Source of the DNA: Actinopolyspora lacussalsi subsp. righensis
Lineage (GTDB): Bacteria; Actinomycetota; Actinomycetes; Mycobacteriales; Pseudonocardiaceae
Reading direction: 5' to 3'
Assembly: GCF_900116555.1 (NCBI RefSeq)
Contig: NZ_FPAT01000001.1
Span: forward strand, 620,001-684,000
DNA length: 64,000 bases
Numbering within the stretch: the first letter of the stretch is position 1; the number at the start of each line of letters is the position of its first letter. This document shows positions 10,168 to 48,847 of the stretch, in pieces. The position numbers were made by a program, and so were the translations under genes. The notes below the pieces were generated by a model, which had not been told where the DNA came from, made no database searches, and worked only from the letters and a program-made list of their open reading frames with translations.

Positions 10168-10168
10168 T

Positions 10169-16556: not shown

Positions 16557-16579
16557 AGCCCCTGACCAGCTCCTTGGGT

Positions 16580-26285: not shown

Positions 26286-26293
26286 ACGAGAAC

Positions 26294-26323: not shown

Positions 26324-26362
26324 TCGTGTCGGACATGTTAGGATAATTCTGGATTGTATTGA

Positions 26363-26732: not shown

Positions 26733-27427
26733 CGCCGTGCCGTATCGGTGGGCATGAGACCGGAGGGCTCACCTTCACACGGCGGCGGGCGCAGAACGGC
26801 TTTCTGGAACTCGGGCACCGTCTGTGGGGAATGCACACGCCATCCGACGCGGTGGGTTTTCGCCTCGTACATGGCGAGATCGGCACCGTCCAGAGCCTCG
26901 TTCAGGTCCGGGGCTGGAGTGGTCACCGTGGTGATGCCCAGTGAGACGCCGACGTGCAGCGGCCTGCCGAGGTCGGGCAGCGTGATCGGCGCGGTCAGCG
27001 CGCTCAGCAGTCGATCCAGCTGATCGAGGTCGGACAGTCGGGCAACGAAGGCCAGCTCGTCCCCGCCGAGCCGTCCGGTAACCGCCGCAGTGCCGAGTTC
27101 GGCGTCCAAACGCCTGGCGACGGTGCGCAGTACACGGTGGCCGTGGGTGTCGTTGATGGGTTTGAATCCGTCGAGGTCGAGCAGTCCGACAGCATTGGCC
27201 TTGGTCAGTGTTCTGACGGCGGCTGCTTCGAATCCTGTCCGCGTCAGCAGTCCGGTGACCGGGTCGCGGTGGGCACGTGCGAGCTGGCGGGTGCGCATTC
27301 GTAGGCGGTAGGCGGTAGCGGCCCATCCAGCGGCCGCGGCCACGGTCGCCGTGCCCAAGGTGGCCGCCGAGCGTGACGCTCGGCGGGGCAATGGGGTCGA
27401 GGTCGACATCCATTCGCAGAGGTGCAT
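26729..27427 (-). CDS. GGDEF-domain protein (diguanylate cyclase-like)
   Basis: A 232-residue protein with one N-terminal hydrophobic segment (about residues 20-40), a short basic helix, then a GGDEF domain. HRDPVTGLLTRTGFEAA, the metal/substrate segment LLDLDGFKPINDTHGH and the active-site loop GRLGGDELAF (GGDEL) are visible. It may make cyclic di-GMP at the membrane; GGDEL is a tolerated active-site variant, but activity is unproven. Alone among its operon neighbours it has no frameshift. It follows the DUF4913-like gene by 20 bp with a GAAAGG ribosome site. Confidence 0.8.
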   Translation of the reverse strand: MHLCEWMSTSTPLPRRASRSAATLGTATVAAAAGWAATAYRLRMRTRQLARAHRDPVTGLLTRTGFEAAAVRTLTKANAVGLLDLDGFKPINDTHGHRVLRTVARRLDAELGTAAVTGRLGGDELAFVARLSDLDQLDRLLSALTAPITLPDLGRPLHVGVSLGITTVTTPAPDLNEALDGADLAMYEAKTHRVGWRVHSPQTVPEFQKAVLRPPPCEGEPSGLMPTDTARR

Positions 27428-31673: not shown

Positions 31674-31922
31674 TCACCTGGTCATCGGCACCGGAGAGGG
31701 GCCGCAACGGCAGACACTGCGGAGCATCACCAGCTTGCCCGAAGTCACCAACAGGCTCAGCGGACGACCACGCCCCTCGCCGAGCAGGTGAATCCTGCTG
31801 TTCAATCCTCCTCGAGACCGCCCGAGCGCCTGCGGCCACCTTCTTAGCGGCGTGACCTGCGGCAATAACGATTGCAACAGGTCCCATTCCTGCTCCGACA
31901 ACTCCCCATATGACACACCCAA
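31674..31922 (-). pseudogene. IS5-family transposase remnant with internal deletion
   Basis: The frame GELSEQEWDLLQSLLPQ is the usual N-terminus of an IS5-group transposase. It is fused directly to GRSRGGLNSRIHLLGEGRGRPLSLLVTSG, which belongs to the catalytic core, so the middle is deleted. A continuation, GQAGDAPQCLPLRPL, is in another frame. It lies between the ISL3 remnant and the biosynthetic operon. Confidence 0.65.
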
Positions 31923-31952
31923 CCAACAAGTGCAAAATCCATCGGTAACTGC

Positions 31953-32660
31953 CTAGCCGAGATCAGCCCGAACTGCACGGAACCATGATGCATAGGCCGG
32001 TGATCGAAGAAAGTCGGAATGCCCACTAGAGAAGACGTGTCGGGAAAACTCTCCGTGGGTAGCGTGTTCCCACTCACCGACTCCGGTATCCGAGGTCAAC
32101 GGGTCCGAGTCCCCATGGATCGCCAAAATGGAGCAGTTTACCGGTCTGCACTGCAAGGTAGTGAACTGCCTGAGCAGACGCAGATCATGCATCGCGGTAT
32201 CGATAATGATCTCTCGCCACTCATCTGACGGCAGGTCGGCTAACATAGCGGGATCAACACTGTCGAGATACGCAGCCGTTCCGGATGGTGTACTCGAAAC
32301 TGTTTCCGACACCTCGAGCCGCATGGGCGCTGTGGCACCGACAACCACCAACGCGGAGATCTCCATGCCAAGCTCTTCCATCTTCGCTGCAGTCGCATAC
32401 GCAACGTAAGCACCAAAACTGTGTCCGAACAGCACTGAACGCGCCGATGCTCGACAGCTCGCCTGTGTGGTACATGATTGCACGATCTCCTCGAAGGACT
32501 CAGCGGCCGCACCGAAGTCCTTGCCGAAGCGGCCAGGGTACTTGACGAGCCATGCCATTGGTCCAAGCTCTCGAATTATTGGTCGAAGCTCACCACCGAA
32601 CGAGCCTGCACCTGGAAATAAAATAGTATCGCCAGAAATCTCACCCACTGTTTCCTCCAA
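31953..32660 (-). CDS. Type II thioesterase (alpha/beta hydrolase)
   Basis: A 235-residue editing thioesterase of NRPS/PKS pathways, which removes stalled or wrong acyl groups from carrier proteins. ILFPGAGSFGGEL at the N-terminus, YPGRFGKDF, and the nucleophile elbow GHSFGAYVAY (Ser near residue 93) are typical. DSDPLTSD and a late FSSGHSDF supply the probable Asp and His. It is the last gene of the 12-kb biosynthetic operon, 12 bp after the permease gene. Base composition is lower in GC than the flanks. Confidence 0.85.
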   Translation of the reverse strand: MEETVGEISGDTILFPGAGSFGGELRPIIRELGPMAWLVKYPGRFGKDFGAAAESFEEIVQSCTTQASCRASARSVLFGHSFGAYVAYATAAKMEELGMEISALVVVGATAPMRLEVSETVSSTPSGTAAYLDSVDPAMLADLPSDEWREIIIDTAMHDLRLLRQFTTLQCRPVNCSILAIHGDSDPLTSDTGVGEWEHATHGEFSRHVFSSGHSDFLRSPAYASWFRAVRADLG

Positions 32661-32672
32661 AAAACATAAAGT

Positions 32673-33950
32673 TCACACACGCACATCTTTCTTCTCAATA
32701 TTCGACGTCCAGCGATTAAGGACGCTAATTCCTATCCAGACCAGAAAGAACAATACCCAGGGAAACCACATAGACGGACCCGCAAGGATAGTCACCAGCA
32801 GAACCGTCACAGCACACATCAAGCTGACTACTCGCGCCATGCTCCCACGTGCGAGCTTGGCGAACGATGCAGCACCAACACCGTACAGCACGAAGTAGAT
32901 TCCGCCAGACAGAACGAACAACAGCTCGAACCGAAAGAGGCCACTGGATCCGAGAAGCGCGATTATTGCCAATATCGATCCGACCACCACTACCGACGTC
33001 ACTGGGTTAAGATCCCGATCACGCACCTTGCTCAGCAAAGCTGGAAGGTAGCCACTACGCGAAAGACCAAACACCAAACGAGACAATGCCAGCACCGAGG
33101 CGAACACATTCGCCGAAATACAAGCGATCACCAACAACAGAGTCGCGGGACGTGCCAAATCACCTAGCGATCTTTCTGCAATGATCAAAAGTGGTGCCGA
33201 GTTCAGCGTGCTGTCCGTGGAGTCCGCGGCGGCGAACAGGCTCAACAGCAGAAGAGAGTACAGAACAACCACGATCACATAAGAGGATACGAAAATACGC
33301 GGAATAAGATCGGAACGTTTATGCTCCTCGAATGTGAAAGACACCGTCTCCCAACCGGTGAATGCTACATAGACAGCGGTAAGCACACTTCCAAAGCTGC
33401 TCAATGAGAGGAGCTCCATGCTCGAATTCGGTGGTTCAATCCCGTGAACACTCAGTACGATCACTGCCGTACAAGCAACCATAACGAACAAACCGAGGAT
33501 CAAACCTACCTGCAGCTTTCCCGACACGTTCGCACCAGCAGACGCGGCCACAGTAGCACCGACCAGGACCATAATTGGGAACACCCATGCCAAGGCGCTT
33601 ATACCAGAGAACTCCGCTACGTAACGGCCTCCCGTTATGGCTGTTGCCGGAATTCCGGTGGTCAGCGCAAAAGTCGCGAGCAATCCTGAGGTGCGCCCAG
33701 TAGTCCCCCCAAGAGCTACTTCGGAATAATAAGCAACACCCGATGCCGATGGATAGCGCCGACCGAGCCATGCATAGCAATAAAGCAATGGAACAACAGA
33801 AACCGCAGCAGCAGCCCAGGGTATCCACGCTGACTTACCAAGCTGGTTATAACTCGTTCCAGGAAGGATCATCATCCCACTTCCCAGAATTGTAGACAAC
33901 GCTACGAATGTTCCTACGGTGCCACCCATAGTTTTTTGTAGCTTGTCCAC
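32673..33950 (-). CDS. APC-family amino-acid permease
   Basis: A 425-residue membrane protein with about 12 hydrophobic segments. STILGSGMMILPG in the first segment is the APC substrate-site signature, and YPSASGVAYYSEVALG follows. GTG 33950 is chosen because a GAGGAG ribosome site lies 6 bp upstream and the preceding gene ends 1 bp before it; the longer frame begins inside that gene. In this operon it probably exports the amino-acid-like product or imports a precursor; the direction cannot be read from sequence. It may also confer self-resistance. Confidence 0.8.
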   Translation of the reverse strand: MDKLQKTMGGTVGTFVALSTILGSGMMILPGTSYNQLGKSAWIPWAAAAVSVVPLLYCYAWLGRRYPSASGVAYYSEVALGGTTGRTSGLLATFALTTGIPATAITGGRYVAEFSGISALAWVFPIMVLVGATVAASAGANVSGKLQVGLILGLFVMVACTAVIVLSVHGIEPPNSSMELLSLSSFGSVLTAVYVAFTGWETVSFTFEEHKRSDLIPRIFVSSYVIVVVLYSLLLLSLFAAADSTDSTLNSAPLLIIAERSLGDLARPATLLLVIACISANVFASVLALSRLVFGLSRSGYLPALLSKVRDRDLNPVTSVVVVGSILAIIALLGSSGLFRFELLFVLSGGIYFVLYGVGAASFAKLARGSMARVVSLMCAVTVLLVTILAGPSMWFPWVLFFLVWIGISVLNRWTSNIEKKDVRV

Positions 33951-33951
33951 A

Positions 33952-34671
33952 CTACACTCCTCGTACAGACGCAATTACTGAACCGACAGTTCTTTCCAGA
34001 GTAGCAAACGGCGTCCCATTGAGCATATGACCTCCATGTTCCACTATCAGGTGAAATTCATGCGATGTCCAGTCTCTCCACATGGCGCACCGACTCGTCC
34101 CGATAAACCTATCATCGCGCGTCGCCAGGACGTGTAGATCTCCAATAGCGCTGATTGCGCTCACAGACATAGCAAGAAAATCAGCGACAATGGCGTCCGA
34201 TCGCAAACTAGCAGATACCTCAGAAAGCATTTCTTTGTCACTGATCAAATCTTCTGGAAATCCATCATCGGCGAGTATTTCCCCGATTTCGGAATCTGAA
34301 CATTCAGACATCGTCGGTATTCGTCCTTCAGCGTCGGGACACGGTGTGTTTATTAACAGCGTCCCGATTGGTCTAGCAAGCCGCGAACCGAGGTCACCGG
34401 ACAGACAAAGCGCCGACAGTCCCCCCATACTGTGCCCAACCAGGACTACATGCTCTGGGCGTGTTCGATCCACGACTTGCTGAATTTCGTCGAGAGTCCT
34501 TTCATACCAGTATCGTGATACGAGAGCGTCAACTGAATCCGCATTCGGCATGCTGACGTATACCGCACCGCGCCGAGCAGCACAGCTTTCCAGCCACTGG
34601 AACGTGGTGCTGCCAGCACCAGCGGCCGGGAAGGATACTATCAAGCTTTCGACTTCCCCAAATTCAGTCAC
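33952..34671 (-). CDS. Thioesterase-like alpha/beta hydrolase
   Basis: A 239-residue second hydrolase of the operon. SFPAAGAGSTTFQWLE resembles the start of type II thioesterases, VLVGHSMGGLSAL is the nucleophile elbow (Ser near residue 82), and VEHGGHMLNG gives the catalytic His. Only about 17% of its residues look shared with the first thioesterase by eye, so they are not duplicates. It begins in a GTGA overlap with the P450 gene. It could release the P450-modified aminoacyl group from the stand-alone PCP, as dedicated hydrolases do in beta-hydroxy-amino-acid pathways. Confidence 0.75.
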   Translation of the reverse strand: MTEFGEVESLIVSFPAAGAGSTTFQWLESCAARRGAVYVSMPNADSVDALVSRYWYERTLDEIQQVVDRTRPEHVVLVGHSMGGLSALCLSGDLGSRLARPIGTLLINTPCPDAEGRIPTMSECSDSEIGEILADDGFPEDLISDKEMLSEVSASLRSDAIVADFLAMSVSAISAIGDLHVLATRDDRFIGTSRCAMWRDWTSHEFHLIVEHGGHMLNGTPFATLERTVGSVIASVRGV

Positions 34672-35900
34672 GATTTCAGGTCCTCTGCTTTGGTCACCTC
34701 GACCTGCAGCTCTGTCAACCCGAGCATAAAATTGGAACGGAGCCGCTGCGGTGGCTCGACCACCACGAACGCCTTATCCCAAGAGGCCAATTCTTCAATG
34801 AACGTTTGAATCTCCAGTGTCGCTACAGGAGCACCAATACAACGGTGGATACCAGCACCGAACGCGATTTGTTTATTATTGGGTCGATCGATCAAGAATG
34901 ATGAGGGCCGCTCGAATGCTGAAGCATCACGGTTCGCTGACATGTTCCACAGAGTCACGAAACTCCCAGCAGGAATGACATGCTCGCCGACTGTAAAATC
35001 ATCCACCGCCAGACGCTGTACATAACTATTAGTTGAAGTCCACCTCAAGAATTCCTGTGTAGCAACTTCACAAGAAACCTTACCGTCGACAAGCTTTCGC
35101 CACTCTGCCCATTCATTGTTGATGGTGTCGACGGTCAGACTGGCCGTGTGGGGCGTGGTCTCGTTTCCACCGACCGCGACATTCAACCCGTTAAGAAGAG
35201 CGACATCGCGCGGCATCTCCCCTGTCGCGACACACTGAGCGAGGAAACCGATCATGTCGTCGGACGATTCCATCCTGATACGTTGATCTATTAGCTCGCT
35301 CATAAAGTCGAGAACGTCAAGTTGCGAATCCACCAGCGAGTCAAGCGGAGAATTGCCAGCATACACCTCGTCGCGGTAGCCGATCATCGTCCTCGTCGCT
35401 TCCAAAAGCCTCAACGCATCGTCCGTACCAATCCCGAAAAGTGCCTCCAGTACCCCCCTCGGCAACTCCGGGGCGACCACCTGACTGAAGTCAAGCTGAT
35501 CACCGACTGAAAGATCAGCCAGTACACTACGAATGTTCTTACGGACGATGTCACCGATCTTCATGAGCATCGCCCGGTTAAACCCGGCCGACTTGATCGG
35601 CTTCTTAATAGCGCTGTGCGCAGGAGGGTCCGCCACAATCAGCATCCGTCCAGAAGCCGAGTCCTTCTCTGGCCGGTACGAACCATCAATCATGGTCCCG
35701 TACGAGGAACTCAATCTGGCGTAGTCGACGTAAGCCGAGTACACGTCTTCGTAACGTGTCAGCGCGTAGAACTCATAGCCGTCAGATCGACGATGGATCG
35801 AGACAGGATGGTTCTCACGGAGATCCGCCAGGTACGTCCATGGATCGTCGTTTGCGAAAAACTCCGCCGAGTAAAGTGGACTATTCTCAACGATCAGCAT
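34668..35900 (-). CDS. Cytochrome P450
   Basis: A 410-residue bacterial P450. The I-helix motif GGNETT, the ExxR pair in EFLRW and the haem ligand loop FGAGIHRCIGAP (Cys near 350) are all present, so it should be active. Its start overlaps the PCP gene by 14 bp and its stop overlaps the next hydrolase. P450s placed directly after a PCP often oxidise a carrier-bound amino acid (NikQ, NovI, OxyD types), usually at the beta carbon. That role is inferred from context. Confidence 0.9.
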   Translation of the reverse strand: MLIVENSPLYSAEFFANDDPWTYLADLRENHPVSIHRRSDGYEFYALTRYEDVYSAYVDYARLSSSYGTMIDGSYRPEKDSASGRMLIVADPPAHSAIKKPIKSAGFNRAMLMKIGDIVRKNIRSVLADLSVGDQLDFSQVVAPELPRGVLEALFGIGTDDALRLLEATRTMIGYRDEVYAGNSPLDSLVDSQLDVLDFMSELIDQRIRMESSDDMIGFLAQCVATGEMPRDVALLNGLNVAVGGNETTPHTASLTVDTINNEWAEWRKLVDGKVSCEVATQEFLRWTSTNSYVQRLAVDDFTVGEHVIPAGSFVTLWNMSANRDASAFERPSSFLIDRPNNKQIAFGAGIHRCIGAPVATLEIQTFIEELASWDKAFVVVEPPQRLRSNFMLGLTELQVEVTKAEDLKS

Positions 35901-36120
35901 TTTCTTCTCCGATCAGATCGACTATACCTGCCGGGGTCCGCCCTCCAAAGAAGACATGACCAGGAACCTTTACACCTGTCCGCTCTTTTAGACGTGCTCG
36001 ACACCGCAAGATCGCCAAAGAGTCGACCCCCGCAGAGAAGATGTCAGTATCTTCTGCGATTTCTGTTTCCGAGAACTCCTGAACACACTCTATTATTTTT
36101 TCGGCTGTAATCTCAACCAC
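35887..36120 (-). CDS. Free-standing peptidyl carrier protein
   Basis: A 77-residue carrier protein. The phosphopantetheine Ser lies in FSAGVDSLAIL near residue 34, followed by ERTGVKVPGHVFF, the usual helix 3 region. GTG 36120 shares one base with the stop of the adenylation gene, so A domain, PCP and P450 are coupled. It is probably loaded by the adjacent adenylation protein and presents its amino acid to the P450. Confidence 0.85.
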   Translation of the reverse strand: MVEITAEKIIECVQEFSETEIAEDTDIFSAGVDSLAILRCRARLKERTGVKVPGHVFFGGRTPAGIVDLIGEENADR

Positions 36121-37538
36121 TATTCCTGCTCCTCATTTTTGGCGAAACGCGCGATCATCAGAGCAGTTGTGTCAATCTTTCCACTAGCTTTGACCGGAAA
36201 GTGATCCACCAGCTCTACCTTGACGGCATTAGAGTACTGTTTGACAACAGATTCGATCCGCGCTCGGGCAGAGAAATCAACTAGCTGCTCTTGGTCAACT
36301 CGCACGAAAGCGAAGGTGTGCTTCTCGTTTTGGACGACCCGGCAGTCGGAAACCTCCGGAAGAACCACCACATCGCGCTCCAAGGCAGCCGAGTTGACAC
36401 GCATCCCATTCACCTTGATCTGGCTGTCCAACCGGCCAGCGAACACGAGACTTCCGTCATTATCGACTTGTACAACATCGCCGGTTCGAAAAGATGCTTC
36501 TCCGTCGTCCGCGCTGAATCGGGTGCTGAGACTGCCGTGCTCGATGTATCCAAGACAGACCAACGGCCCGTCGATAAGGAGTTCGTGACAGCCATCCGCA
36601 CGATCTCCAGGGTCTACCAGTCTCTGCTTGCATCCTTCCAACGGCTTGCCGATCGGAACCGGACCGGTAGTAATTTCGTCGGACAACTCGTACTTGTGCG
36701 TGGCGAACGTGGCTTCGGCGGGGCCGTAGAGGTTAATGAACTGATTCGTCAGTTTGGCACGACGAGCCTGCTGATAGGTTGACACTCGGAATCGCTCACC
36801 GCCGCTGTACAACCAAGGAACATCCGAGATGCATCCAGGCAGAGACTCGACAACCGTAGCGAGCACGGCAGCGGGTAACAGCATACGATCGATACCATAC
36901 TTTTTCGACAGTTCTGGCCAGTCGAAGACGTCCTCGTTCACGTTCGGCATGCAGACGACGGCACCTTCCGCTGCCACTGCTTTCCACGTATCGAACCACC
37001 AGCCGTCGTAAGTGGGCGTCGCGAAGCTCCCGGAAACCAGTCTACCGCTCGTCGGTACTTCCAGATCACGGCATCTAAAGAGCGCCTGCAGGTTACCCCT
37101 GGTTACTCCGACAGCCTTCCGGCTACCCGTGCTTCCAGAAGTGAAGTTCACGGCCACAATTTCGTCTGGTAATCGGCTTGTGGGGAAACGTTCCGCTGCA
37201 TGCGTTTCGCGTTCAACCTCGGTCGGTCGGTCACCGTCAACAGACACAATGAGGTCTGGACGAACATGCTCGAGCTCGCTCTGTCCGAGATCGCCATCGT
37301 CTGCGACTGCAACACAATCCGCTCGCCAGGAGGCCAACTGTCCCGCAAAACATCCCAGTTTCGAGGGAGATCGGACCAGCACGACCCGGACCTCATCCTG
37401 ACTGCCAATGACTTCCTCGATCGACTGGGTCAGTTCGTCGACCTGCTTCCAGCTGTACTCGGTACCGTTCTCGATCCACAGTGTTTCCGAGGACTTCCAA
37501 CGGTCACCGTGAATCACGTCGCTCCAGTTATAATTCAT
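36120..37538 (-). CDS. Stand-alone NRPS adenylation domain
   Basis: A 472-residue adenylation enzyme with no fused carrier. Core motifs: A3 NFTSGSTGSRK, A5 NLYGPAEAT, A7 FRTGDVV, A8 GRLDSQIKVNG, and A10 KASGKID with the catalytic Lys. ATG 37538 is chosen because it overlaps the stop of the previous gene (ATGA). By alignment to GrsA the pocket reads D-G-F-M-Y-G-L-F-A-K. Asp at the first position indicates an alpha-amino acid; the code matches no specificity I know. It most likely loads the 77-residue PCP downstream. Confidence 0.88.
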   Translation of the reverse strand: MNYNWSDVIHGDRWKSSETLWIENGTEYSWKQVDELTQSIEEVIGSQDEVRVVLVRSPSKLGCFAGQLASWRADCVAVADDGDLGQSELEHVRPDLIVSVDGDRPTEVERETHAAERFPTSRLPDEIVAVNFTSGSTGSRKAVGVTRGNLQALFRCRDLEVPTSGRLVSGSFATPTYDGWWFDTWKAVAAEGAVVCMPNVNEDVFDWPELSKKYGIDRMLLPAAVLATVVESLPGCISDVPWLYSGGERFRVSTYQQARRAKLTNQFINLYGPAEATFATHKYELSDEITTGPVPIGKPLEGCKQRLVDPGDRADGCHELLIDGPLVCLGYIEHGSLSTRFSADDGEASFRTGDVVQVDNDGSLVFAGRLDSQIKVNGMRVNSAALERDVVVLPEVSDCRVVQNEKHTFAFVRVDQEQLVDFSARARIESVVKQYSNAVKVELVDHFPVKASGKIDTTALMIARFAKNEEQE

Positions 37539-39310
37539 ACCTTCAGCCCCAGTTCGTCCATCACCATACTGATACTGATCAGACTCAGTCGAGGGTCCCA
37601 CTTGTCCGGTGTACGGTTTGTATTCAGATCATCTAGACAATCCAGCGAAAAGATGCCACTGGTAGCGACGAGTTCTCGCCAACTTTTCCAGGTAGAGTCG
37701 TCGACGACCGTGGACAACTCGTATGCTGTGAATCCTTGCTTGGCACGTTGCAGAACCGATTGAGGAACAATATCTGCATAAGCTGCCTTCAAGCAGGCCT
37801 TTCCTTCAAAGTCGGACACCTTATCACTGTCTCTGACCTGCAGCGCCAGGGAAACCACAGAGTTCGCTAGGAACGGATAGCGTCCTTCAACTGAGTTGGC
37901 CATGAGCATTGCGTCGCCGTGGTCACCGAGAAGATGACCAGCCAGCTGGACATACACGTCAGCGATCGAACGGAGCTGCATGTGCGACAGCGACCTGGTT
38001 TCGTGCTCAGCGAAAGGAATTAGTCGATTCCGCCAAAACTCATTACCTGAAATAGCTTCCCTAGCGGTGGGAGTAAGGCAGCGGTCTCGTCGTAGCGCGA
38101 CCTTGTTCCAGTCTACCTCCCAGCTAAAATCTGCTCTCCCCCATGCCTGCTCGTTCTCAGCGCAGGCCTCCCGCGGCCTCTTGCGCGCACTATCGAACGC
38201 GTAAGAATCATAGCCAAAGAAGAGCTCATCAGCACCCTCTCCGGAAACGACCCCCTTGATCCCGGTCTGCTGAACCTCACGCGACAACATCATCGCCGCG
38301 ACATTGTACGTCTCGCGCTGCGGGTAACAGCAGTAGCGCACCATCTTCTCGAAATCCGAGGCGATATCAGCCGGGTTGCACTGGATCCGCCGGTGTTCAC
38401 TTCCGACAGCTTCCGACACCTCACGCTGAAAAGGCCCCTCATCCAACGCAGCATTGTCGAACGCCGCTGAGAATGTCTTGACTGGTTTCTCCAGGACGCG
38501 AGCCGCTTCTATGGCAAGAGCGGTGGAGTCGAACCCACCACTCAAGTAAGAACCGATCTCCACATCCGCACACAGGCGGTCACGGACAGACTGCTGTAAG
38601 CGGTCTCGTATGTCCTCTCCCGCGACAGCATCCTCCACCGCAGCGAATTCCCCGTATCGCCAATATCGAGTGGTTTCCTGACTGTTCTCACTGAATCGGA
38701 CCACACATCCTGGTGGGACAGCTTGCACTCCCTCGACCAGTGTCCGCGGCGCGACTATATTCCCCAACGCCAGATATTGGTCGACTGCACCGATATCCAA
38801 TCGCCACATTTGAGGAACACACTGCACCAACGACTTGAGCTCTGAACAGAAGTGAACACGGTGATCCAGCACCGTGTAGTACATCGGACAGATTCCGAAG
38901 CGGTCCCTGGCAAGATACAGCGAGTTCTCCGCACGGTCGTGGATCACAGTTGCGAACTGTCCGTCTATCAACTCGAGACCTTCGAGTCCGTGGCGCGCGA
39001 CGAGTTCCGGGATGACCGCTACGTCGACACCGTTGGCCCATCGGACGTCCCCGAACCTCCTGCGAAGATCCTCGAAGTTGAACACCTCACCGTTGGTCAT
39101 GGCTACGAACCGACCACTACGGTCCTCTACGGGTTGCCAGCCGTCCACCAACCCGGTCATACTGAGACGTCCAAGTTTCATCGACAGCGTCGATGTATCC
39201 AGAGAATAAGTCTCGTCAGGTCCACGGTGGAGCAGTCGGGAATTCATAGCCGCCGCGACCGTGCGGTCCAAGCGACCGTCCGGAGCGAAGGTCCCGCAAA
39301 TGCCGCACAT
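37535..39310 (-). CDS. Glutamine-dependent asparagine synthetase-like amidotransferase
   Basis: A 591-residue AsnB-type enzyme. It must start at ATG 39310 so that Cys2 (MCGICG) becomes the N-terminal nucleophile of the glutaminase domain; RLLHRGPDE and NGEVFNFEDL are glutaminase contacts. The synthetase half has the PP-loop SGGFDST near residue 255, GEGADELFFGY, and VEGRYPFL. Both halves look intact, unlike lasso cyclases and beta-lactam synthetases, which lose the Cys. It may simply make Asn (or an amidated Asp analogue) for the A-PCP gene next door, or amidate/condense a pathway intermediate. Confidence 0.88.
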   Translation of the reverse strand: MCGICGTFAPDGRLDRTVAAAMNSRLLHRGPDETYSLDTSTLSMKLGRLSMTGLVDGWQPVEDRSGRFVAMTNGEVFNFEDLRRRFGDVRWANGVDVAVIPELVARHGLEGLELIDGQFATVIHDRAENSLYLARDRFGICPMYYTVLDHRVHFCSELKSLVQCVPQMWRLDIGAVDQYLALGNIVAPRTLVEGVQAVPPGCVVRFSENSQETTRYWRYGEFAAVEDAVAGEDIRDRLQQSVRDRLCADVEIGSYLSGGFDSTALAIEAARVLEKPVKTFSAAFDNAALDEGPFQREVSEAVGSEHRRIQCNPADIASDFEKMVRYCCYPQRETYNVAAMMLSREVQQTGIKGVVSGEGADELFFGYDSYAFDSARKRPREACAENEQAWGRADFSWEVDWNKVALRRDRCLTPTAREAISGNEFWRNRLIPFAEHETRSLSHMQLRSIADVYVQLAGHLLGDHGDAMLMANSVEGRYPFLANSVVSLALQVRDSDKVSDFEGKACLKAAYADIVPQSVLQRAKQGFTAYELSTVVDDSTWKSWRELVATSGIFSLDCLDDLNTNRTPDKWDPRLSLISISMVMDELGLKV

Positions 39311-39314
39311 TAAG

Positions 39315-41030
39315 CTATACGCTCCGTTCTTGTAGTTGGTCGGCAAGGGCCTTCAGATTTTCAGCTCGAAGCACGTCTCGCACCCCAGCATCCACCCAAC
39401 CTAGTTCTTTTATCTTGTTAATCAAGATTACTGCTGATGCCGAGTCCCCACCAAGGTCGAAGAAATTGTCGTGTAGCATAGCGTCGTCTACTCCGGTAAG
39501 CTGACGTGCAAGATGCAAAATCTGTTGAGCAGATGACATTTTTTCATCAAAACAGTCGACTTCAAGGCGAATCGTTTGAAGAGCATCGCGGTCAACCTTC
39601 CCGTTTGACGTATAGGGAAAGGCGTCAATCTGCTTGATGACTGAGGGGATCTTGTACGAAGCAAGGACATCCTCGAGATGGCGCCGCACCGCGCGAGGTT
39701 CCACGTTACCTTGATAGTAACACACCAAAGCATCTGGCTCGAAATTTTTATCGCCCTCGTGAGACTCGACAGTCACCACTGTATCCATAACAGAGCTTAT
39801 CTCGCACACCGCGATCTCTATCTCACCCGGGTCGAGCCGATAGCCTCGCACTTTCACTTGCCGATCCAATCGCTCAACGAAGTAGAGCTGACCTCCTCGA
39901 CGTTCGACGATATCGCCGGTATGGTAAATTTTACGTCCTTCTATATCGGTAAACCGTTGCACGCCTTGCGCGGTGAAATAGCCGACTGCGACGCTCTCTC
40001 CTGTAATGACGAGTTCACCTCGACTCGCAATTCCCTCCGAGGAACATTGCTCGTCCGCTGGTGCCAATCCCTGGATATAGTAGTCGCAGTCGCCCACGAT
40101 GTCCCCGAGTGGTACAGATCGAGTGCACTCGCCAGGCATCAGTTCACCGCTTAGGAAATTGCATACTGTAGTCTCAGTTGTCCCGTAAGCGTTGTGGAAC
40201 TTCGCCACCTCGGACCATTTCTGCACCACGCTGGGCCGGCATGCTCCACCACCGTTGATCACATGGCTGAGGCTCATCGCACTGCTGGTTTCTGTCGCGG
40301 TCAGCGCGAAGGGCGTTGTCTTGAGGTGAGTGATCCGAAACTTTTCCAGCGTGTTCTGCAGTACGGTCCCCGGGACCAACTGAGCCTCGTCCAGCACTAC
40401 GAGACACGCTCCTGCAGTCAATGTCCAGAGAATTTCGGTGATACACCCGTCGAAGGTTAGGCGGGCAAACTGCAGCGTCCTGGATTGCGACCCCACGGAC
40501 AGGCGATCCATGTGGTATTGGATCACTGAAGTGAGTGGGTCCGTGCGAACCAGAACGCACTTGGGATCACCGGTGGAACCTGACGTATGGATCGCGTAGC
40601 CGATCTCGTCCTCGACAGAAGGGAGTCCGAGCGTCTGGTGGGACGCAGCTAGGTGCCATCCCGCCGGAATTTCGGTTAGATACGCCCTGTTTTCACTAGC
40701 ATGATGTCGGGCAATCACTTTAATACCCAGAGATGCAACTTTCTCTGCGTTTGACGATTCACTATCACGGGTATCGATAAAGACAAACGGACGTCTGATT
40801 TTCAACGCACCTATCATCGCAACAATCGCGCCGAATTTTCGATCGGCCTCGATTCCGACGAACTCGCCGGGCGAGGTGCATTTCTCGAGCTGGTGCACGA
40901 ACTCCCGGAGTTGCTCATCGAACTCTCGATAAGTAATGACGCCTCCGGGTGTATCCATCGCATCGTTGTCTGGATAATTCTTCACGGCATTTTCAATAAG
41001 TTCCATGATCGACATCTGTCGAATTCTCAC
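39315..41030 (-). CDS. NRPS didomain, adenylation-PCP, Asp/Asn-like pocket
   Basis: A 571-residue protein. Residues 1-480 form an A domain: A3 IHTSGSTGDPK, A4 FDGCITEI, A5 HNAYGTTETT, A7 YHTGDIV, A8 RLDRQVKVRGYRLDPGEIE, A10 NGKVD. Residues 495-571 are a PCP with DNFFDLGGDSASA. Aligned to GrsA the pocket is D-G-T-K-I-G-A-V-C-K. Asp, Thr and Lys at positions 235, 239 and 278 are shared with known Asp and Asn codes. GTG 41030 has an AGGAAGG site 7 bp upstream. There is no condensation or thioesterase domain, so the partner enzymes must act in trans. Confidence 0.9.
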   Translation of the reverse strand: MRIRQMSIMELIENAVKNYPDNDAMDTPGGVITYREFDEQLREFVHQLEKCTSPGEFVGIEADRKFGAIVAMIGALKIRRPFVFIDTRDSESSNAEKVASLGIKVIARHHASENRAYLTEIPAGWHLAASHQTLGLPSVEDEIGYAIHTSGSTGDPKCVLVRTDPLTSVIQYHMDRLSVGSQSRTLQFARLTFDGCITEILWTLTAGACLVVLDEAQLVPGTVLQNTLEKFRITHLKTTPFALTATETSSAMSLSHVINGGGACRPSVVQKWSEVAKFHNAYGTTETTVCNFLSGELMPGECTRSVPLGDIVGDCDYYIQGLAPADEQCSSEGIASRGELVITGESVAVGYFTAQGVQRFTDIEGRKIYHTGDIVERRGGQLYFVERLDRQVKVRGYRLDPGEIEIAVCEISSVMDTVVTVESHEGDKNFEPDALVCYYQGNVEPRAVRRHLEDVLASYKIPSVIKQIDAFPYTSNGKVDRDALQTIRLEVDCFDEKMSSAQQILHLARQLTGVDDAMLHDNFFDLGGDSASAVILINKIKELGWVDAGVRDVLRAENLKALADQLQERSV

Positions 41031-41105
41031 TTTCTCGCCTTCCTTTGAAGAAAAAGCGCCACATGAATAGCACTGCGGTTGTACATGGCGCTATCAACCT
41101 CTTGG

Positions 41106-41870
41106 TCAGATGGATTTCATATATCCTCCATCGCATCGAATTCCGGCGCCGGTGATGTACTCCGCTTTCTCACTCGCAAGAAAAGAAACCAATTCTCCTA
41201 CGTCTTCTGGATCCCCATAGCGCCTCAAAGGTATCTCTTCTATGGTTCTATTCTTTATCGATTCAACATTTTTACCGGATTTCTCGGCTGCAGCTATATC
41301 GATCGAACGTAGGCGATCAGTATCGACCTTTCCTGGAATCACATGATTAACTGTCACACCAAACTGACTCACACTGTTGGCCAGTAGTTTCAGATACGAT
41401 TGCACCGCTGATCTTGCGATCGTGGAACCAGCAAGACCGTCGGCAGGAGCAGACAAAGAACTAGATGTGATACCGATGAAGCGACCCCAGCGGTTTTTTT
41501 TCATCGCCGGCAAAGTTGCTTCGACAGTACGCTGAATCGAGAACAGCATGAGTTCCATCGCTTGCTGGATCTGCAAGCTGGAAAGTTCGTCGACCGTGCC
41601 AGGATCGAACCCCGGCGAGTTGAGCAGGACGATATCATATGGTCCCGTATCGGCGACTTTATCACCAACGCCGGCAGAGTTTCGGAAATCGCAAGCAAAA
41701 GACCTATTATCGGAGCCAGGAAGGCTCTGTGCGACTTCCTTGGCACGAGCTCGGTCATTGCCAGAAATGGTCACGACGCAGCCGTAACCCGCCAACGACC
41801 GCGCGACACCTAACCCAATTCCTCTGGTACCACACAACACGAGCGCTTGTTTTTTATCGAGACAGTACAT
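41106..41870 (-). CDS. SDR-family protein with non-canonical active site
   Basis: A 254-residue short-chain dehydrogenase fold. The nucleotide loop is CGTRGIGLG, ITSSSLSAP holds the catalytic Ser, and the C-terminal LASEKAEYITGAGIRCDGG is classical. Where YxxxK is expected the sequence reads GSTIARSAVQSYLK, with Ser/Thr and Arg in place of Tyr and Lys. VNHVIPGKVDTDRLRSID fits a known SDR subgroup that lacks the Tyr/Lys pair. It may have a changed reaction rather than simple keto reduction. 40 bp separate it from the preceding gene. Confidence 0.8.
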   Translation of the reverse strand: MYCLDKKQALVLCGTRGIGLGVARSLAGYGCVVTISGNDRARAKEVAQSLPGSDNRSFACDFRNSAGVGDKVADTGPYDIVLLNSPGFDPGTVDELSSLQIQQAMELMLFSIQRTVEATLPAMKKNRWGRFIGITSSSLSAPADGLAGSTIARSAVQSYLKLLANSVSQFGVTVNHVIPGKVDTDRLRSIDIAAAEKSGKNVESIKNRTIEEIPLRRYGDPEDVGELVSFLASEKAEYITGAGIRCDGGYMKSI

Positions 41871-41909
41871 CGATACCTTCAGTTTCTTGATCGTGTTTAT
41901 TCAATCTTG

Positions 41910-42755
41910 TTACCGCACTACATGCGTGAGAGTTCCGACCTGTTCGACAACTGAATTAATCGAGTCTCCGGGATTGATTACCGCAGCTCCTGGTGTTCCG
42001 GTACAAATCACCGTTCCCGGCTCAAGCGTCCTACCTGCAGTGAAATACTCAACGAGATAACTAAGATCATATTTCATCTCAGAAGGAGTCGCTGAAGCGA
42101 TGATCTCTCCGTTCTGAACGGTGGCTATGCAGAGAGAGTCGAGACTTTTCTCGTCGAACTCATCTAGAGTCACCAAGACAGGGCCTATACTACAGAATGT
42201 ATCAAAACCTTTCGCCCAAGGTATGTAACGCGGGTTCTCGCGTATGACGTCCTCGGCAGTCATGTCCAGGACCGCCGTGATACCCGCGATCACTGATCGC
42301 CAGCTTTCGCGTTTTACGTTCTTGCATACAGCGCCGATAACCAGCCCCAGCTCTGCTTCTGCAGTTACTCGACCGGACTGGCTCGGCAACTCGATACACT
42401 GGCCATTATCGATGAGACAGCTGGCAGGCCTCAAGTAAGAGCCCGGCCCCGAATCAGGCTGCTCGGATTCCAGGTCATCGGAGTGACGTTGGTAGTTGAG
42501 TCCGGCTCCCCAAATATTAGCGTCGCGGTCGGCGATCGTGGCGACCTGTTCCAGGCTGAGGTCTATCGTATCGAGCTCACTCCCGTGAGACTCAACGAGC
42601 TTCGTCAGCTCACGCAGCTGCTGATCGGCTACGACATCGCTGAGACGAGTGACGTTCTCATAGCCTGTGAAGTCGCCGAGCGGGAACCATCTGTTATGAT
42701 GTCCTATTACTAGCTGATTACCGCTGATATCTGATTTGATCCTTGCCAGCTTCAC
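41910..42755 (-). CDS. Fumarylacetoacetate hydrolase-fold protein (hydratase/decarboxylase/C-C hydrolase)
   Basis: A 281-residue enzyme of the FAH superfamily. The metal site is visible: TAEAELGLVIG (two Glu) and LDMTAEDV (Asp), followed by WAKGFDTFCSIGPVLV and ICTGTPGAAVINPGD, all family hallmarks. Members hydrate or decarboxylate 2-oxo-enoates, or cleave acylpyruvates. It lies 10 bp after the aldolase-like gene, which normally handles 4-hydroxy-2-oxo acids, so the two may share an intermediate. Confidence 0.85.
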   Translation of the reverse strand: MKLARIKSDISGNQLVIGHHNRWFPLGDFTGYENVTRLSDVVADQQLRELTKLVESHGSELDTIDLSLEQVATIADRDANIWGAGLNYQRHSDDLESEQPDSGPGSYLRPASCLIDNGQCIELPSQSGRVTAEAELGLVIGAVCKNVKRESWRSVIAGITAVLDMTAEDVIRENPRYIPWAKGFDTFCSIGPVLVTLDEFDEKSLDSLCIATVQNGEIIASATPSEMKYDLSYLVEYFTAGRTLEPGTVICTGTPGAAVINPGDSINSVVEQVGTLTHVVR

Positions 42756-42765
42756 CGCGTTCCTC

Positions 42766-43824
42766 CTAGAGTGTCGGCTGGCTAGAATGAGAGTTAGATT
42801 GCATCTCAGAGCAGTCGGCGATCTGCCGTGCTGCGGCCCGCATATCGGCCTTGCTTGGGCTTTGCGCTGCTAGACTGACCGCGACTTCCATGAGACGGGC
42901 AGGGTCGGTGTCGTACTCAGTAGAAAGCTCTTCGACCAGTGAGAAGTACCCCGAGTGGATCCCGATCACACTGCCGAGCACCTGCATTTCTCGATCCTCT
43001 GGGATAGCAGCCATGTTGACCCGGCAGAGTTCAGCAAGCTTGGCTAGCTTCTTGTAGTCGAATCTGTCAGTGTCCAGGACAGTCAGGAGACCAGCCAGTG
43101 ACTCGATCTCCGCGTTTCCAGCACCTCGGCCAATACCGTTAAGCGTGCCGTCGACAATTGTCGCGCCAGATTCAATAGCTGTAACGCTGTTTACGTTGGC
43201 CATACCAAGATTGTTGTGACCGTGGAACCCGATCATCGAGAAGTGCTTCCTGACTGCATTGACGTACTCGTGGACGTCTCTGGGAAGCATCGCACCATAA
43301 GAGTCTACAATGTACAACCCAGCAATGCTCGGACTGACCCCATCGAGCAAGCTAAGTAGCTCGTTTACTGGAGTAGCGCTTGACTTCATCAAGTTTAGGT
43401 AGACTTGTTCGCAGACGTCAGTTGCTTGCTGGATATACTCGAGGTTTTCAGGCACTCTGTCTGGTTCCATACCGACCCGAACAAATGACATGCCACGATC
43501 GCACAGTTTCGCCACAGTATCCAGTTGCGTGAATTCTGGCTGCGCGAACATCCCCCAAGATTTGCTAGTCAGAACCGAACAAGCTATTTCACACCACTTA
43601 TAGTGGTCGATATTGCATGGCTTAATTCCCGATTGTTCCGCCTCAACGCCGAAACCGTGACCAATCTCAACCTTGCATATAGGTGTTTCATTGATTCGCT
43701 CGAGAAGGTCTATGACGAAATCTTCTTCGAATTGAAAGTCGACAGAATACGAGCCATCTCGGAGCGTGCAGTCGAGCAACTCGATTTTATCTGTTTTTAT
43801 CAACTGGTCGGATACAGTGTACAT
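42766..43824 (-). CDS. DRE-TIM metallolyase, 4-hydroxy-2-oxovalerate aldolase-like
   Basis: A 352-residue enzyme of the HMG-CoA lyase/DmpG superfamily. LLDCTLRDGSY (residues 17-27) supplies the Asp-Arg-Glu-type opening of the TIM barrel; GFHGHNNLGMANVNS holds the metal-binding His pair, and GTLNGIGRGAGNAEIE the Asn-rich loop. Its closest recognisable relatives by motif are aldolases that make or cleave 4-hydroxy-2-oxo acids with pyruvate enolate; homocitrate-synthase-type chemistry is less likely because a C-terminal regulatory domain is absent. It is the first gene of the operon, with GAGGAG 9 bp before ATG 43824. Confidence 0.82.
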   Translation of the reverse strand: MYTVSDQLIKTDKIELLDCTLRDGSYSVDFQFEEDFVIDLLERINETPICKVEIGHGFGVEAEQSGIKPCNIDHYKWCEIACSVLTSKSWGMFAQPEFTQLDTVAKLCDRGMSFVRVGMEPDRVPENLEYIQQATDVCEQVYLNLMKSSATPVNELLSLLDGVSPSIAGLYIVDSYGAMLPRDVHEYVNAVRKHFSMIGFHGHNNLGMANVNSVTAIESGATIVDGTLNGIGRGAGNAEIESLAGLLTVLDTDRFDYKKLAKLAELCRVNMAAIPEDREMQVLGSVIGIHSGYFSLVEELSTEYDTDPARLMEVAVSLAAQSPSKADMRAAARQIADCSEMQSNSHSSQPTL

Positions 43825-44515
43825 GCTCCAGCACTCCTCGGTCCAAACCGAAAATCCTCACACAGGAAACATCGCTGCTTTTTACGTCGAACCCCAGGAT
43901 TCAACCCGTCTGTATAGCTTCACGGTGCCAAAATCTTTCCGCCTCAGTTCGACAAAGCAAATCTCTCCAACTTTGTGAATCTGATGCATATTTCTATCGA
44001 ACCGGAGAAGCTTGGTCAACTCAAGCGGAACAATGTTCACTCGGTTAGACTAGTAGTGCAGCCGTAGCTCTCGATGATCATGGTTCGTTTGTAGATTTTC
44101 GCCGGAAGTGAGCTCTGCTACTGCGATATTGGTGACATCGTCGCCAGGTGGACCAGGCCAGAATATGGGTGATCTGCTCGAGTGAGATGCCCAGTAGATC
44201 CTAGAACAGGCGGCTGATTTCGGACGGGGGCAAGTGGGTTAAGAGGGTGTCTTAACGGAGGTATTGACAGTAGACGCCCCCAGACTACCGACATTCATGT
44301 TCACCCAAGAGGTTTCTCTCGCGATATGACTCAGTCGACATTCGGCCCGCGTGTCCGGAGTGACGTCGGAAACGTGTCACCGCGACACACGCTGGACCAG
44401 CCTGCTCCGCTCAGCGGAGTTTGCGCACGATTTCGGCGAGCTACCCAATGTTCGACGACGTCAGCTTTAGAGCCCCTAACATGTTGGTGATGCCAGGATG
44501 GGATGATCTTGGTTG
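43825..44515. other. Promoter-side gap of the biosynthetic operon and IS debris
   Basis: No complete gene. The first 200 bp are AT-rich and must hold the promoter of the leftward operon; a TATACA at the complement of 43911-43916 is a possible -10. Around 44090-44180, minus strand, the fragment LEQITHILAWSTWRRCHQYR resembles the basic C-terminus of a transposase, which suggests another IS scrap. The rest is featureless. Confidence 0.4.
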
Positions 44516-45260: not shown

Positions 45261-45284
45261 ACGTGACTATCTAGCCCGCCAGTA

Positions 45285-46010
45285 CCAGTGGGTGGTCCTC
45301 TCCAGTCAGGGCGCTCAACGCCGCGGCGATTTCGGGCAGCCCGGCACGTACGTAGGTGGCCGTCACTCCGCTCTCGCCCGCGCTGTCGGTGTGGCCGGCT
45401 TAGGCCCGTGCCACCGCGTAGCCGAAGTGGTGCTCCACCCACGTCAGGGTGGTGTACCGCAACCAATGAGTACTGACCTGCTGGGTGGCCACCCACGACA
45501 CGTGCTTCCCGAGCCCGGTGCCACAGGTGGTCATACCGGCGATGCGTCAACGCCGCTCCGCTACGGTAGCGCCGCGCCCGACCATCACCGGACACCTGCG
45601 CGCCCCGCTGGTCGGCGTGTTCGCGCAGGTGCAGCATCAACGTCGGTGAGACCGGCTGCCACCGCACCGTGTCGTTCTTCTCTCGCAGCAGCACCAGACA
45701 CTGATCCGGATCCAGATCAGTCACCCTCAGCGTGAGGGCCCCGCCCCGGCGGCAGGCGGTCTCGGTGTGCAGCCGCAGCAGCAGCGTGTCCAATGCGGGA
45801 TCGTTGCCCGTGGACGCGGCCACCCGGTTCAACTCCGGCACCTCGGCCAGCGGAAACGCACGCGGCGACACCCCACCAGCCACCGAACTCCGGGCGGACT
45901 CACCACGCCCGGCACCGGGAACCACCGCGGACACGACCGACTCAGCCATGCCGACCACCACCCCGGCGGCCACAGCACGGCCCACGCACAGCCAGCGCGT
46001 CACGACATGA
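45285..46010 (-). pseudogene. Tyrosine recombinase (integrase) remnant next to tRNA-Leu
   Basis: Catalytic part of a phage/ICE integrase. LLLRLHTETACRRGGALTLRVTDLD carries the first catalytic Arg, and LVLLREKNDTVRWQPVSP follows. After a frame change near 45515, STHWLRYTTLTWVEHHFG gives the His-x-x-Arg box and TATYVRAGLPEIAAAL the nucleophile Tyr. A TAA at 45402-45400 interrupts AVARA*AGHTD. The N-terminal arm-binding and core-binding parts are missing or unrecognisable. Its position directly 3' of tRNA-Leu is the classic site for such an integrase. Confidence 0.8.
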
Positions 46011-46085
46011 GAAAAAGCGGCACCCACGGTGCCGCGACAACAGACCTTCGAACCTCGCATATCGGGGAAATTTCCCCTGACAGTG

Positions 46086-46172
46086 TGTCGGAGGGGGGAC
46101 TTGAACCCCCACGACCATTAATAGGTCACTAGCACCTCAAGCTAGCGCGTCTACCGTTTCCGCCACTCCGAC
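46086..46172 (-). tRNA. tRNA-Leu(GAG)
   Basis: An 87-nt cloverleaf on the minus strand. The acceptor arm GTCGGAG pairs with CTCCGAC, the discriminator base is A, and the anticodon stem CTAGC/GCTAG closes a loop TTGAGGT with anticodon GAG. A long variable arm, typical of tRNA-Leu, precedes the T arm GGGGGTTCAAGTCCCCC. CCA is not encoded. The integrase remnant lies on its 3' side, so the 3' end is the likely attachment site. Confidence 0.95.
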
Positions 46173-46294
46173 GCGGCAACATCGACTCGGTTTCTTCCGA
46201 GCCCCTCATTGCGTTGTGATACTACGATAACCGATCGACACAGCGGCCCGCCAACCACCCCCCTCTTTTGATCCGGAAGTGGTAGAAAGGCCAG

Positions 46295-47656
46295 GTGAGC
46301 GCACATGTTGATCCCGAGAACGACGACCGGTCGAGCACGGATCCGGGACTACGCCGGGCCGAGGACGAGGTCGTCACGCTGGCGAGCGAGCTGATCCGGT
46401 TCGACACCACCAACACCGGTGATCCGGCGACCCTGAACCCGGAACGTCCGGCGGCCGAGTACGTGGCCGAGAAACTCGGCGAGGTCGGATTCGAGACCAC
46501 CTACGTGGAATCCGGGGACACCCCCGGACGTGGCAACGTCATCGCCCGTCTGCCCGGCGCCGACCGACAGCGCGGCGGCCTGCTGGTGCACGGCCACCTG
46601 GACGTGGTCCCCGCCGACCCGACCGAATGGTCGGTGCATCCGTTCTCCGGGGCGGTGCAGGACGACTACCTGTGGGGCCGCGGCGCGGTCGACATGAAGG
46701 ACATGGTCGCCATGACGCTGACCACGGCCCGCCGACTCGGCCGTGACGGCATCACGCCACCACGCGACATCGTGTTCGCCTTCCTCGCCGACGAGGAGGC
46801 CGGCGGCCTGCAGGGCGCGCAGTGGCTGGTGGACCACCGCCCGGAGCTGTTCGAGGGCTGCACAGAGGCGATCAGCGAGGTCGGCGGCTACTCGGTGACC
46901 TTCGGCGACGGCGTCCGGGCCTATCTGATCCAGACGGCGGAGAAGGGAATCCGCTGGCTCAAGCTGCGGGTCCGCGCCCGCGCGGGGCACGGCTCGATGG
47001 TGCACGAGGACAACGCGGTGACCCAGCTCGCCCAGGCCGTCGCGAGACTCGGGCAGCACCGCTTCCCGATCGTGCTCAACGACAGCGTGCGGGAGTTCCT
47101 CGACGGTGTCAGCGAGCTCACCGGCTGGAGCTTCCCCGAGGACGACCTCGACGGCGCCATCGCCAAGCTGGGCAATCTATCCCGCATCATCGGAGCCACC
47201 GTCCGCGACATCGCCAACCCGACGATGCTCAACGCCGGTTACAAGGCCAACGTGATCCCCTCGGTGGCGGAGGCCTCGGTCGACTGCCGCATTCTTCCCG
47301 GTCGCGAGGAGGAGTTCGACCGGGAGCTGGCCGAGGTACTCGGCCCGGACGTCGAACGCGAGTGGGTCGGTCTGCCCCCGGTGGAGACGCGGTTCGAGGG
47401 CAAGATCGTCGAGTCCATGAGCCGCTCCCTGCTCACCGAGGACCCGGCGGCCCGCACCCTGCCGTACATGATGTCGGGCGGCACCGACGCGAAGTCGTTC
47501 AGCAGGCTGGGCATGAACTGCTTCGGCTTCGCCCCGCTGCGCCTGCCCGCGGATCTGGACTTCTCCGCGCTGTTCCACGGGGTGGACGAACGTGTCCCGG
47601 TGGACTCGCTGCGGTTCGGCACCCGGGTACTGGACCACTTCCTGCGCACCTCCTGA
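46295..47656 (+). CDS. M20-family metallopeptidase/deacylase
   Basis: A 453-residue zinc-dependent hydrolase of the M20/M25/M40 family (ArgE/DapE/dipeptidase type). VHGHLDVVPADP and GRGAVDMKDMVA give the first metal ligands and catalytic Asp, AFLADEEAGG the catalytic Glu, and MSGGTDAKSF the late His/Asp region. The Gly-rich RARAGHGSM belongs to the lid domain. GTG 46295 follows a GAAAGG site. It is a single-gene unit with its own terminator and marks the return to core chromosome. The substrate is not predictable. Confidence 0.88.
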   Translation: MSAHVDPENDDRSSTDPGLRRAEDEVVTLASELIRFDTTNTGDPATLNPERPAAEYVAEKLGEVGFETTYVESGDTPGRGNVIARLPGADRQRGGLLVHGHLDVVPADPTEWSVHPFSGAVQDDYLWGRGAVDMKDMVAMTLTTARRLGRDGITPPRDIVFAFLADEEAGGLQGAQWLVDHRPELFEGCTEAISEVGGYSVTFGDGVRAYLIQTAEKGIRWLKLRVRARAGHGSMVHEDNAVTQLAQAVARLGQHRFPIVLNDSVREFLDGVSELTGWSFPEDDLDGAIAKLGNLSRIIGATVRDIANPTMLNAGYKANVIPSVAEASVDCRILPGREEEFDRELAEVLGPDVEREWVGLPPVETRFEGKIVESMSRSLLTEDPAARTLPYMMSGGTDAKSFSRLGMNCFGFAPLRLPADLDFSALFHGVDERVPVDSLRFGTRVLDHFLRTS

Positions 47657-47678
47657 TCCGGACGCATCTCCCGCCACA

Positions 47679-47710
47679 CGGTGACCGGCGCGAAGCGGTG
47701 CCGGTCACCG
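47679..47710 (+). terminator. Terminator after the M20 peptidase
   Basis: A perfect 11-bp inverted repeat, CGGTGACCGGC at 47679-47689 and GCCGGTCACCG at 47700-47710, with a 10-nt loop, 23 bp after the stop codon. Confidence 0.65.
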
Positions 47711-47815
47711 GGAGATCCGCACGGAACGCGCCGACCGTCGCGCGTTCTCGTATGATCGACTTCGGACGACGACGCCGGATCGTTCCGGCAACCAACCACG
47801 TCGGGAGGTGTCACG

Positions 47816-48826: not shown

Positions 48827-48847
48827 CCGCAGCCCGCGGCGAACGGT

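Follow-up and report, generated by a model that had tools for sequence, protein, structure and literature searches.

The operon described here occupies positions 31953-43824 of a 64,000-nucleotide stretch of the Actinopolyspora lacussalsi subsp. righensis genome (contig NZ_FPAT01000001.1; G000:C22:620001-684000 in our numbering), hereafter the window. A first-pass annotation had described it as eleven tightly packed leftward genes, among them two encoding adenylation (A) domains and two encoding peptidyl carrier proteins (PCPs), and this description holds. All eleven open reading frames lie at the positions first given, the gaps between them range from -23 to 75 bp with overlaps at five of the ten joins, and Pfam, run on ten of the eleven proteins, returned Thioesterase (twice), P450, PP-binding, AMP-binding, Asn_synthase with GATase, AMP-binding with PP-binding, SDR, FAA_hydrolase and HMGL-like. 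In order of transcription, on the minus strand throughout, the genes encode ALD, a homologue of DRE-TIM (HMGL-like) pyruvate-type aldolases (42766-43824); an FAH-fold enzyme of the hydrolase/hydratase/decarboxylase type (41910-42755); an SDR oxidoreductase (41106-41870); A1-PCP, a stand-alone adenylation-carrier didomain (39315-41030); the asparagine synthetase homologue AsnB (37535-39310); A2, a free-standing A domain (36120-37538); a free PCP (35887-36120); a P450 (34668-35900); TE2, a protein of thioesterase/acyltransferase fold with a Ser nucleophile (GHSMGG; 33952-34671); an APC-family permease, assigned by profile match, that resembles amino-acid transporters (32673-33974); and TE1, a type II thioesterase with a Ser nucleophile (31953-32660). 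The listed AsnB reading frame extends to 39346 and that of A2 to 37601; translation probably starts at the ATG codons at 39310, which precedes Cys2 of AsnB, and 37538, which is backed by orthologues, rather than at the upstream TTG/GTG codons.

All eleven operon genes are under purifying selection. Orthologues of each are present in two other Actinopolyspora genomes (G003 and G008), with dN/dS values of 0.06-0.30 against G003 and 0.07-0.28 against G008 and no stop codons, indicating that the gene set is not a chance assembly. One of these genomes, that of A. xinjiangensis (G008; contig NZ_FNJR01000018.1), encodes all eleven proteins at 90-97% identity. The G+C content of the operon is 0.535 as one block and 0.517-0.551 in its 2-kb bins, whereas the remaining bins of the window range from 0.595 to 0.730. 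Values of 0.535-0.540 hold for the three Actinopolyspora loci, compared with 0.655-0.746 for the other 15 loci of the family described below.

In searches with AsnB, strong matches were those at 64-97% identity, the remainder lying at about 37% or less. Seven of 100 genomes contained a strong match (G000, G003, G008, G067, G030, G052 and G073), and further searches were positive in 9 of 390 (adding G168, G270, G303 and G309), 4 of 394 (adding G620), 5 of 300 (adding G1087, G1046, G1047 and G986) and 3 of 345 genomes (adding G1407 and G1291). The search sets share genomes; together they yield 18 loci including the window, and we examined the neighbourhoods of the other 17. ALD, the FAH-fold enzyme, A1-PCP and AsnB are encoded together at all 18, with the SDR gene interposed at some, and we refer to these four genes as the core. 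The loci are spread across several families, so far as the search sets go all of them actinobacterial, and their distribution is patchy. An arm consisting of A2, the free PCP, the P450, TE2 and the APC permease accompanies the core at eight loci (the window, G003, G008, G067, G030, G052, G1087 and G1047), and the remaining ten have the core without the A2/P450 arm. TE1 is encoded at 16 of the 18 loci, always with its Ser nucleophile. An SDR of the window's type is found at eight loci and a diverged one (35-39% identity) at another eight, and none was found in the stretches examined of G067 and G620.

Other genes recur near the core. Seven loci (G073, G986, G1046, G1407, G1291, G270 and G620) encode a PP-loop-like protein of about 490 amino acids; the G620 copy (L035:4046-5527) has by eye the motifs GGGKDS and CNACN and gave no Pfam match, and it possibly provides another ATP-dependent step of nitrogen or sulfur transfer. 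At G168 (L032:6504-8944), which lacks the A2 arm, AsnB is followed by what appear by eye to be another A domain and a phytanoyl-CoA dioxygenase-like protein, as if a non-haem oxygenase stood in place of the P450. Six records of a plasmid collection contain AsnB homologues, at 37.3% identity or less; three of their neighbourhoods hold genes for nonribosomal peptide synthetases (NRPSs), and no aldolase or FAH gene is listed in them.

The core enzymes have conserved active sites, and that of ALD is unusual. ALD resembles 4-hydroxy-2-oxovalerate aldolase (PDB 1nvm, 4lrs) in belonging to the DRE-TIM family and in its Arg, acid and HxH metal residues. In the enzyme DmpG, His21 and Tyr291 have catalytic roles. 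Unlike that aldolase, ALD has Tyr26 and His290 at the places of His21 and Tyr291 of 1nvm in the PDB alignment. This swap is a feature of the family, with Tyr at the first place in each of the 17 sequences in which the region could be read and His at the second in all 18. ALD also falls below both curated cut-offs, scoring 134.2 of the 286 bits required by TIGR03217 and 169.1 of the 229 required by PRK08195. We therefore rejected its assignment as a 4-hydroxy-2-oxovalerate aldolase. A 2-oxo-dicarboxylate route for ALD and the FAH-fold enzyme seemed plausible and was dropped for want of evidence. At four loci of family f15, Glu replaces the metal-binding Asp of ALD. The FAH-fold enzyme keeps its HxxD, ExE, D and K residues at 18 of 18 loci.

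The pocket of A1, with columns placed by motif, reads DGTT[IVL]GA[VI]CK at every locus (DGTTIGAVCK in the window), and the PCP Ser is likewise invariant. We take this pocket to be similar to those specific for aromatic amino acids, beta-hydroxytyrosine among them; as the columns were placed by motif rather than by structure alignment, we went no further in naming the A1 substrate than an aromatic-type pocket. AsnB scores 334.3 bits against TIGR01536 (cut-off 267.1), and the residues that serve its glutaminase (Cys2, Arg, Asn-Gly-Glu and Asp) and synthetase (SGGFDS, Glu and Lys) activities are kept at all 18 loci. In profile and residues it is thus a glutamine-dependent amidotransferase, and the conservation of both sites favours ammonia as the nucleophile. 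Cyclisation by AsnB of the beta-lactam or lasso type was rejected because the glutaminase Cys, which is lost in beta-lactam synthetase, is kept throughout and because the lasso and macrolactam models scored below cut-off. The AsnB family also includes a near full-length though remote PDB match (7ylz, 100.7 bits), a hydroxyamidotransferase of trichostatin biosynthesis that we take to be TsnB9 and whose nitrogen donor presumably differs from that of glutamine-type AsnB proteins.

The second arm has the parts of a tailoring cassette: an A domain whose pocket begins with Asp, a PCP with its Ser, a P450 of the group that acts on PCPs, and a thioesterase. The A2 pocket, DGFL[YF]GLFAK at all eight arm-bearing loci (DGFLYGLFAK in the window), matches no code known to us, and the Ser of the free PCP is kept at all eight. 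The P450, 73-98% identical to its seven relatives, has 4l0e as its top PDB match (E 3.7e-55) and 3mgx as its fourth; we take these to be P450sky and OxyD, respectively, both of which act on PCP-bound amino acids. As described in the available excerpt of PMC5683658, P450sky of skyllamycin biosynthesis, the nearest solved relative of the window P450, beta-hydroxylates PCP-bound amino acids. Unlike P450sky, which works on the modules of a long assembly line, the window P450 would serve a stand-alone A/PCP pair. Of the eight arm-bearing loci, the five that have no linked condensation (C) domain encode a TE2 with a Ser nucleophile, and the three that have one encode a TE2 with Cys. This contrast offers a lead, and not proof, that a Cys-bearing TE2 may act as a shuttle and a Ser-bearing TE2 as a releasing enzyme.

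The first-pass annotation had found no C domain in the window, and our searches agree. The motif HHxxxDG is absent from all six frames, a looser pattern yielded a single HHxxxDA at 59336, outside the operon, and tblastn with three C domains gave no match in the window at E<=1e-3. The same tblastn searches found no C domain at G003, G008, G030, G052, G270, G620, G303 or G309 (40-69 kb for each of these and for the window); the stretches of G309, G270, G620 and G030 do contain HHxxxDG strings, none of them accompanied by a tblastn match to the query C domains. However, being condensation-less is not a family trait, since a C domain lies in the examined stretch of eight of the 18 loci (G067, G1087, G1047, G073, G986, G1046, G1407 and G168), and three of the eight arm-bearing loci (G067, G1087 and G1047) encode a C-PCP protein beside the operon. 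That of G168 sits within a multi-module NRPS, and G1291 is probably a ninth such locus, as its examined stretch begins inside a C-A-PCP homologue. The C protein of G067, the one of the three tested with Pfam, matches Condensation (319 bits) and PP-binding with no AMP-binding match, and those of G1087 and G1047 are similar to it in sequence; by eye, a short stretch between its C domain and PCP resembles the end of an A domain. Its amino acid must accordingly arrive in trans, most simply from A2. At least three species have kept the form without a C domain, as judged by the low dN/dS and the lack of stop codons in the window, G003 and G008. The first-pass annotation had concluded that any amide must come from AsnB or spontaneous chemistry. 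Our results do not support this, as eight loci have a C domain and the tailoring of amino acids on a carrier needs no amide.

From the gene set, its conservation, the active-site residues, the signature of selection and the absence of C domains, we infer a pathway with two arms. ALD would join pyruvate to an aldehyde, and the FAH-fold enzyme and the SDR would process the resulting aldol to yield a portion of an unusual amino acid, here called unit 1, the order of these steps and their substrates being a matter of prediction. AsnB would add glutamine-derived nitrogen to unit 1 as an amide, and A1-PCP would carry unit 1 as a thioester. In the second arm, A2 would load another amino acid onto the free PCP, where the P450 would hydroxylate it, probably at the beta carbon, to give unit 2. 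Relatives with a linked C domain could join the units; in the three arm-bearing ones, a C-PCP with an A-domain stub would receive unit 2 from the free PCP by way of the TE2 Cys. The Actinopolyspora operons lack the joining module and have Ser in TE2, and their units would most likely be freed by TE1 and TE2 and moved by the permease. We thus favour, at somewhat less than even confidence, the reading in which the operon produces a pair of non-standard amino acids on carrier proteins, one of them hydroxylated, and most likely releases them without a peptide bond. Several points weigh against this reading. We recognised no aminotransferase in the core to turn the aldol product into an amino acid, TIGR01536 classes AsnB as an ordinary asparagine synthase, and the aromatic-type pocket that we presume for A1 leaves the roles of the aldolase and AsnB unaccounted for. 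The three loci with both a Cys-bearing TE2 and a C domain form one clade (support 95), so the Ser/Cys contrast amounts to a single event. Finally, the Ser of TE2 is no proof of hydrolysis, since LgnA, a type II thioesterase that likewise bears Ser, is able to work as an aminoacyltransferase (PMC8748450, available excerpt).

Alternatively, a coupling module encoded at another site in the genome might act in trans. Ten PF00668 matches in the window's genome exceed the cut-off, nine of them in one region of contig C4; the tenth is a free-standing C domain at C22:545981-547309, on the same contig as the operon and about 105 kb away from it. At G030, a C-A-PCP protein whose C domain is 54% identical to the linked one of G067 is encoded with a thioesterase and an MFS protein about 540 kb from the core operon (L089:3689-14413). 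However, the free-standing C gene adjoins its own A-PCP gene, near a P450-like gene, and its product is 30% identical to the G067 C protein, whose closest match in G000 and G003 reaches only 38%. Moreover, A. xinjiangensis has the whole operon in a genome, 99% complete, with no PF00668 match even at E<=10; among 12 genomes it alone lacks a match at E<=1e-15. The idea, raised in the first-pass annotation, of a C domain elsewhere that acts with the operon thus fails for A. xinjiangensis and retains candidates in the window's genome; we identified no C domain as acting with the operon, and on balance we regard such a module as unlikely. The remote set of G030 also lies beside a carbamoyltransferase gene and two genes that look by eye like those of cysteine-synthase-type and ornithine-cyclodeaminase-type enzymes.

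The operon of A. xinjiangensis, under selection in a genome without a C domain, would also fit a joined product made by AsnB itself, which would adenylate a carboxylate and then use the amine of an amino acid on its carrier, instead of ammonia, as the coupling partner. AsnB is indeed part of all 18 cores, including those of G270, G620, G303 and G309, which have neither an A2 arm nor a tblastn C match in 60-69 kb. Yet other A-domain genes lie near two of these four (G303 and G270), the unit-joining relatives have an ordinary C domain, and the intact glutaminase site at every locus fits the use of ammonia, all of which leaves us with little belief in such coupling. We are similarly sceptical that the Actinopolyspora operon is a remnant whose ancestor lost the C-PCP, thioesterase and MFS genes and whose other genes are decaying or making shunt products. 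Homologues of the C, thioesterase and MFS proteins do occur together at most C-containing loci, and the G067 versions have left no trace in the window at E<=1e-3, but eleven intact genes with dN/dS of 0.06-0.30 across three species are hard to reconcile with decay, and G030 and G052, two other arm-bearing lineages, also lack a C domain in the examined stretch. Least probable, to our minds, is that AsnB merely supplies asparagine, as its TIGR01536 score would allow, with ALD and the FAH-fold enzyme as catabolic passengers and one hydroxylated amino acid as the product. Such a role sits badly with the linkage of ALD, the FAH-fold enzyme, A1-PCP and AsnB at 18 of 18 loci across several families, with the ten loci that have the core and no A2/P450 arm, and with the identity of AsnB proteins within the family (64-97%) as against other homologues (about 37% or less).

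A set of two A domains and two PCPs with no C domain is nothing out of the ordinary where amino acids are tailored on a carrier, a process with no need of an amide bond, and this part of our preferred reading, the tailoring of carrier-bound units, follows a logic that is already known. In nikkomycin (NikP1/NikQ/NikP2) and novobiocin (NovH/NovI) biosynthesis, a single amino acid is tailored by means of an A domain and a PCP, and the thioesterase or acyltransferase is a separate protein; neither these systems nor that of coronamic acid is known to us to include a further A-PCP together with AsnB and an aldolase/FAH pair. The coronamic acid proteins CmaA/CmaD/CmaE work in the same manner, to go by the excerpt available of PMC8748450. 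In the cystobactamid system, a separate A-T unit is tailored and its load then passed by a shuttle to a module whose A domain is inactive (CysH/CysB/CysK; PMC7966384, in part), and the C-PCP with A-domain stub of the G067-type relatives parallels this target module of the CysH/CysJ/CysB/CysK system. There, a large NRPS follows and the portion of the source at hand mentions no aldolase/FAH pair or AsnB, whereas the window version has no target module. A search of open-licence literature aimed at the gene set or the genus returned no description of the eleven genes, in line with the first-pass annotation, which had matched them to no product or pathway. We best explain the operon as a functional representative of a biosynthetic family of which we found no account in the literature searched. 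Two things look new, the unit that ALD, the FAH-fold enzyme and AsnB would build and the exchangeable second half.

The operon lies in a variable region marked by a gene for tRNA-Leu(gag) (46085-46172, minus strand), whose adjoining DNA is partly duplicated in G003 and in G140, a genome of the same species. Window positions 7610-10755 and 45832-50902 align to G140 at 97-98% identity and 45284-45842 at 89%, and 10755-45284 has no alignment to the 46 kb of G140 compared; nor was an AsnB orthologue found in G140 at E<=1e-100. A distance of 1.4 kb separates the operon of G003 (window 31705-44258, 95.8% identity) from the polyketide genes that correspond to window 1-8498, so that some 23 kb of the window, cas genes included, is missing at that place. 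A second copy of the tRNA-side DNA (45832-46096), at 97% identity, lies about 6 kb from the G003 operon, and G140 has a partial copy at 87%. The lack of alignment in G140, the gap in G003 and the duplicated tRNA-side DNA support the earlier description of a tRNA-linked island, with variable DNA, absent from a close relative, beside a tRNA gene. Linkage to a tRNA gene does not extend to the family as a whole, as scans of 20 loci gave tRNAs at G052 alone, where genes for tRNA-Gly and tRNA-Pro lie within about 1 kb of the operon.

At 18321-24833 the window also has genes of a type I-E-like CRISPR system, for Cas3, Cse1 and a CT1975/Cas7 protein, which fall within the stretch missing at the G003 place; no array-like repeats were found at 16400-18400 or 25000-27300, where there is one two-copy 30-nt pair. 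Polyketide genes at 120-8396 encode a ketosynthase-acyltransferase-carrier-ketoreductase (KR) protein and a FabA-like dehydratase protein, and positions 1-8498 are common to G003 at 96%. A large BTAD/NB-ARC regulator gene lies at 12011-14908, about 17 kb from the operon.

The family thus represents a conserved recipe (aldolase, FAH-fold enzyme, A-PCP and AsnB) for a building block that we matched to no known pathway; a linked C domain is present in some versions of the family and absent from others. It may, on a view we hold only tentatively, be a patchily distributed pathway of antimetabolite type, in which a Tyr/His-swapped pyruvate aldolase, an FAH-fold enzyme and AsnB would build a new carrier-bound amino acid that some bacteria release and others join to varying second residues by means of swappable modules of the C-PCP or C-A-PCP type. 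The stub-bearing C-PCP proteins hint at a way in which a module could be taken over by a tailoring arm together with a shuttle, and A. xinjiangensis, in which no condensation domain is recognisable, provides a test case for what an NRPS-like operon makes in such a cell.

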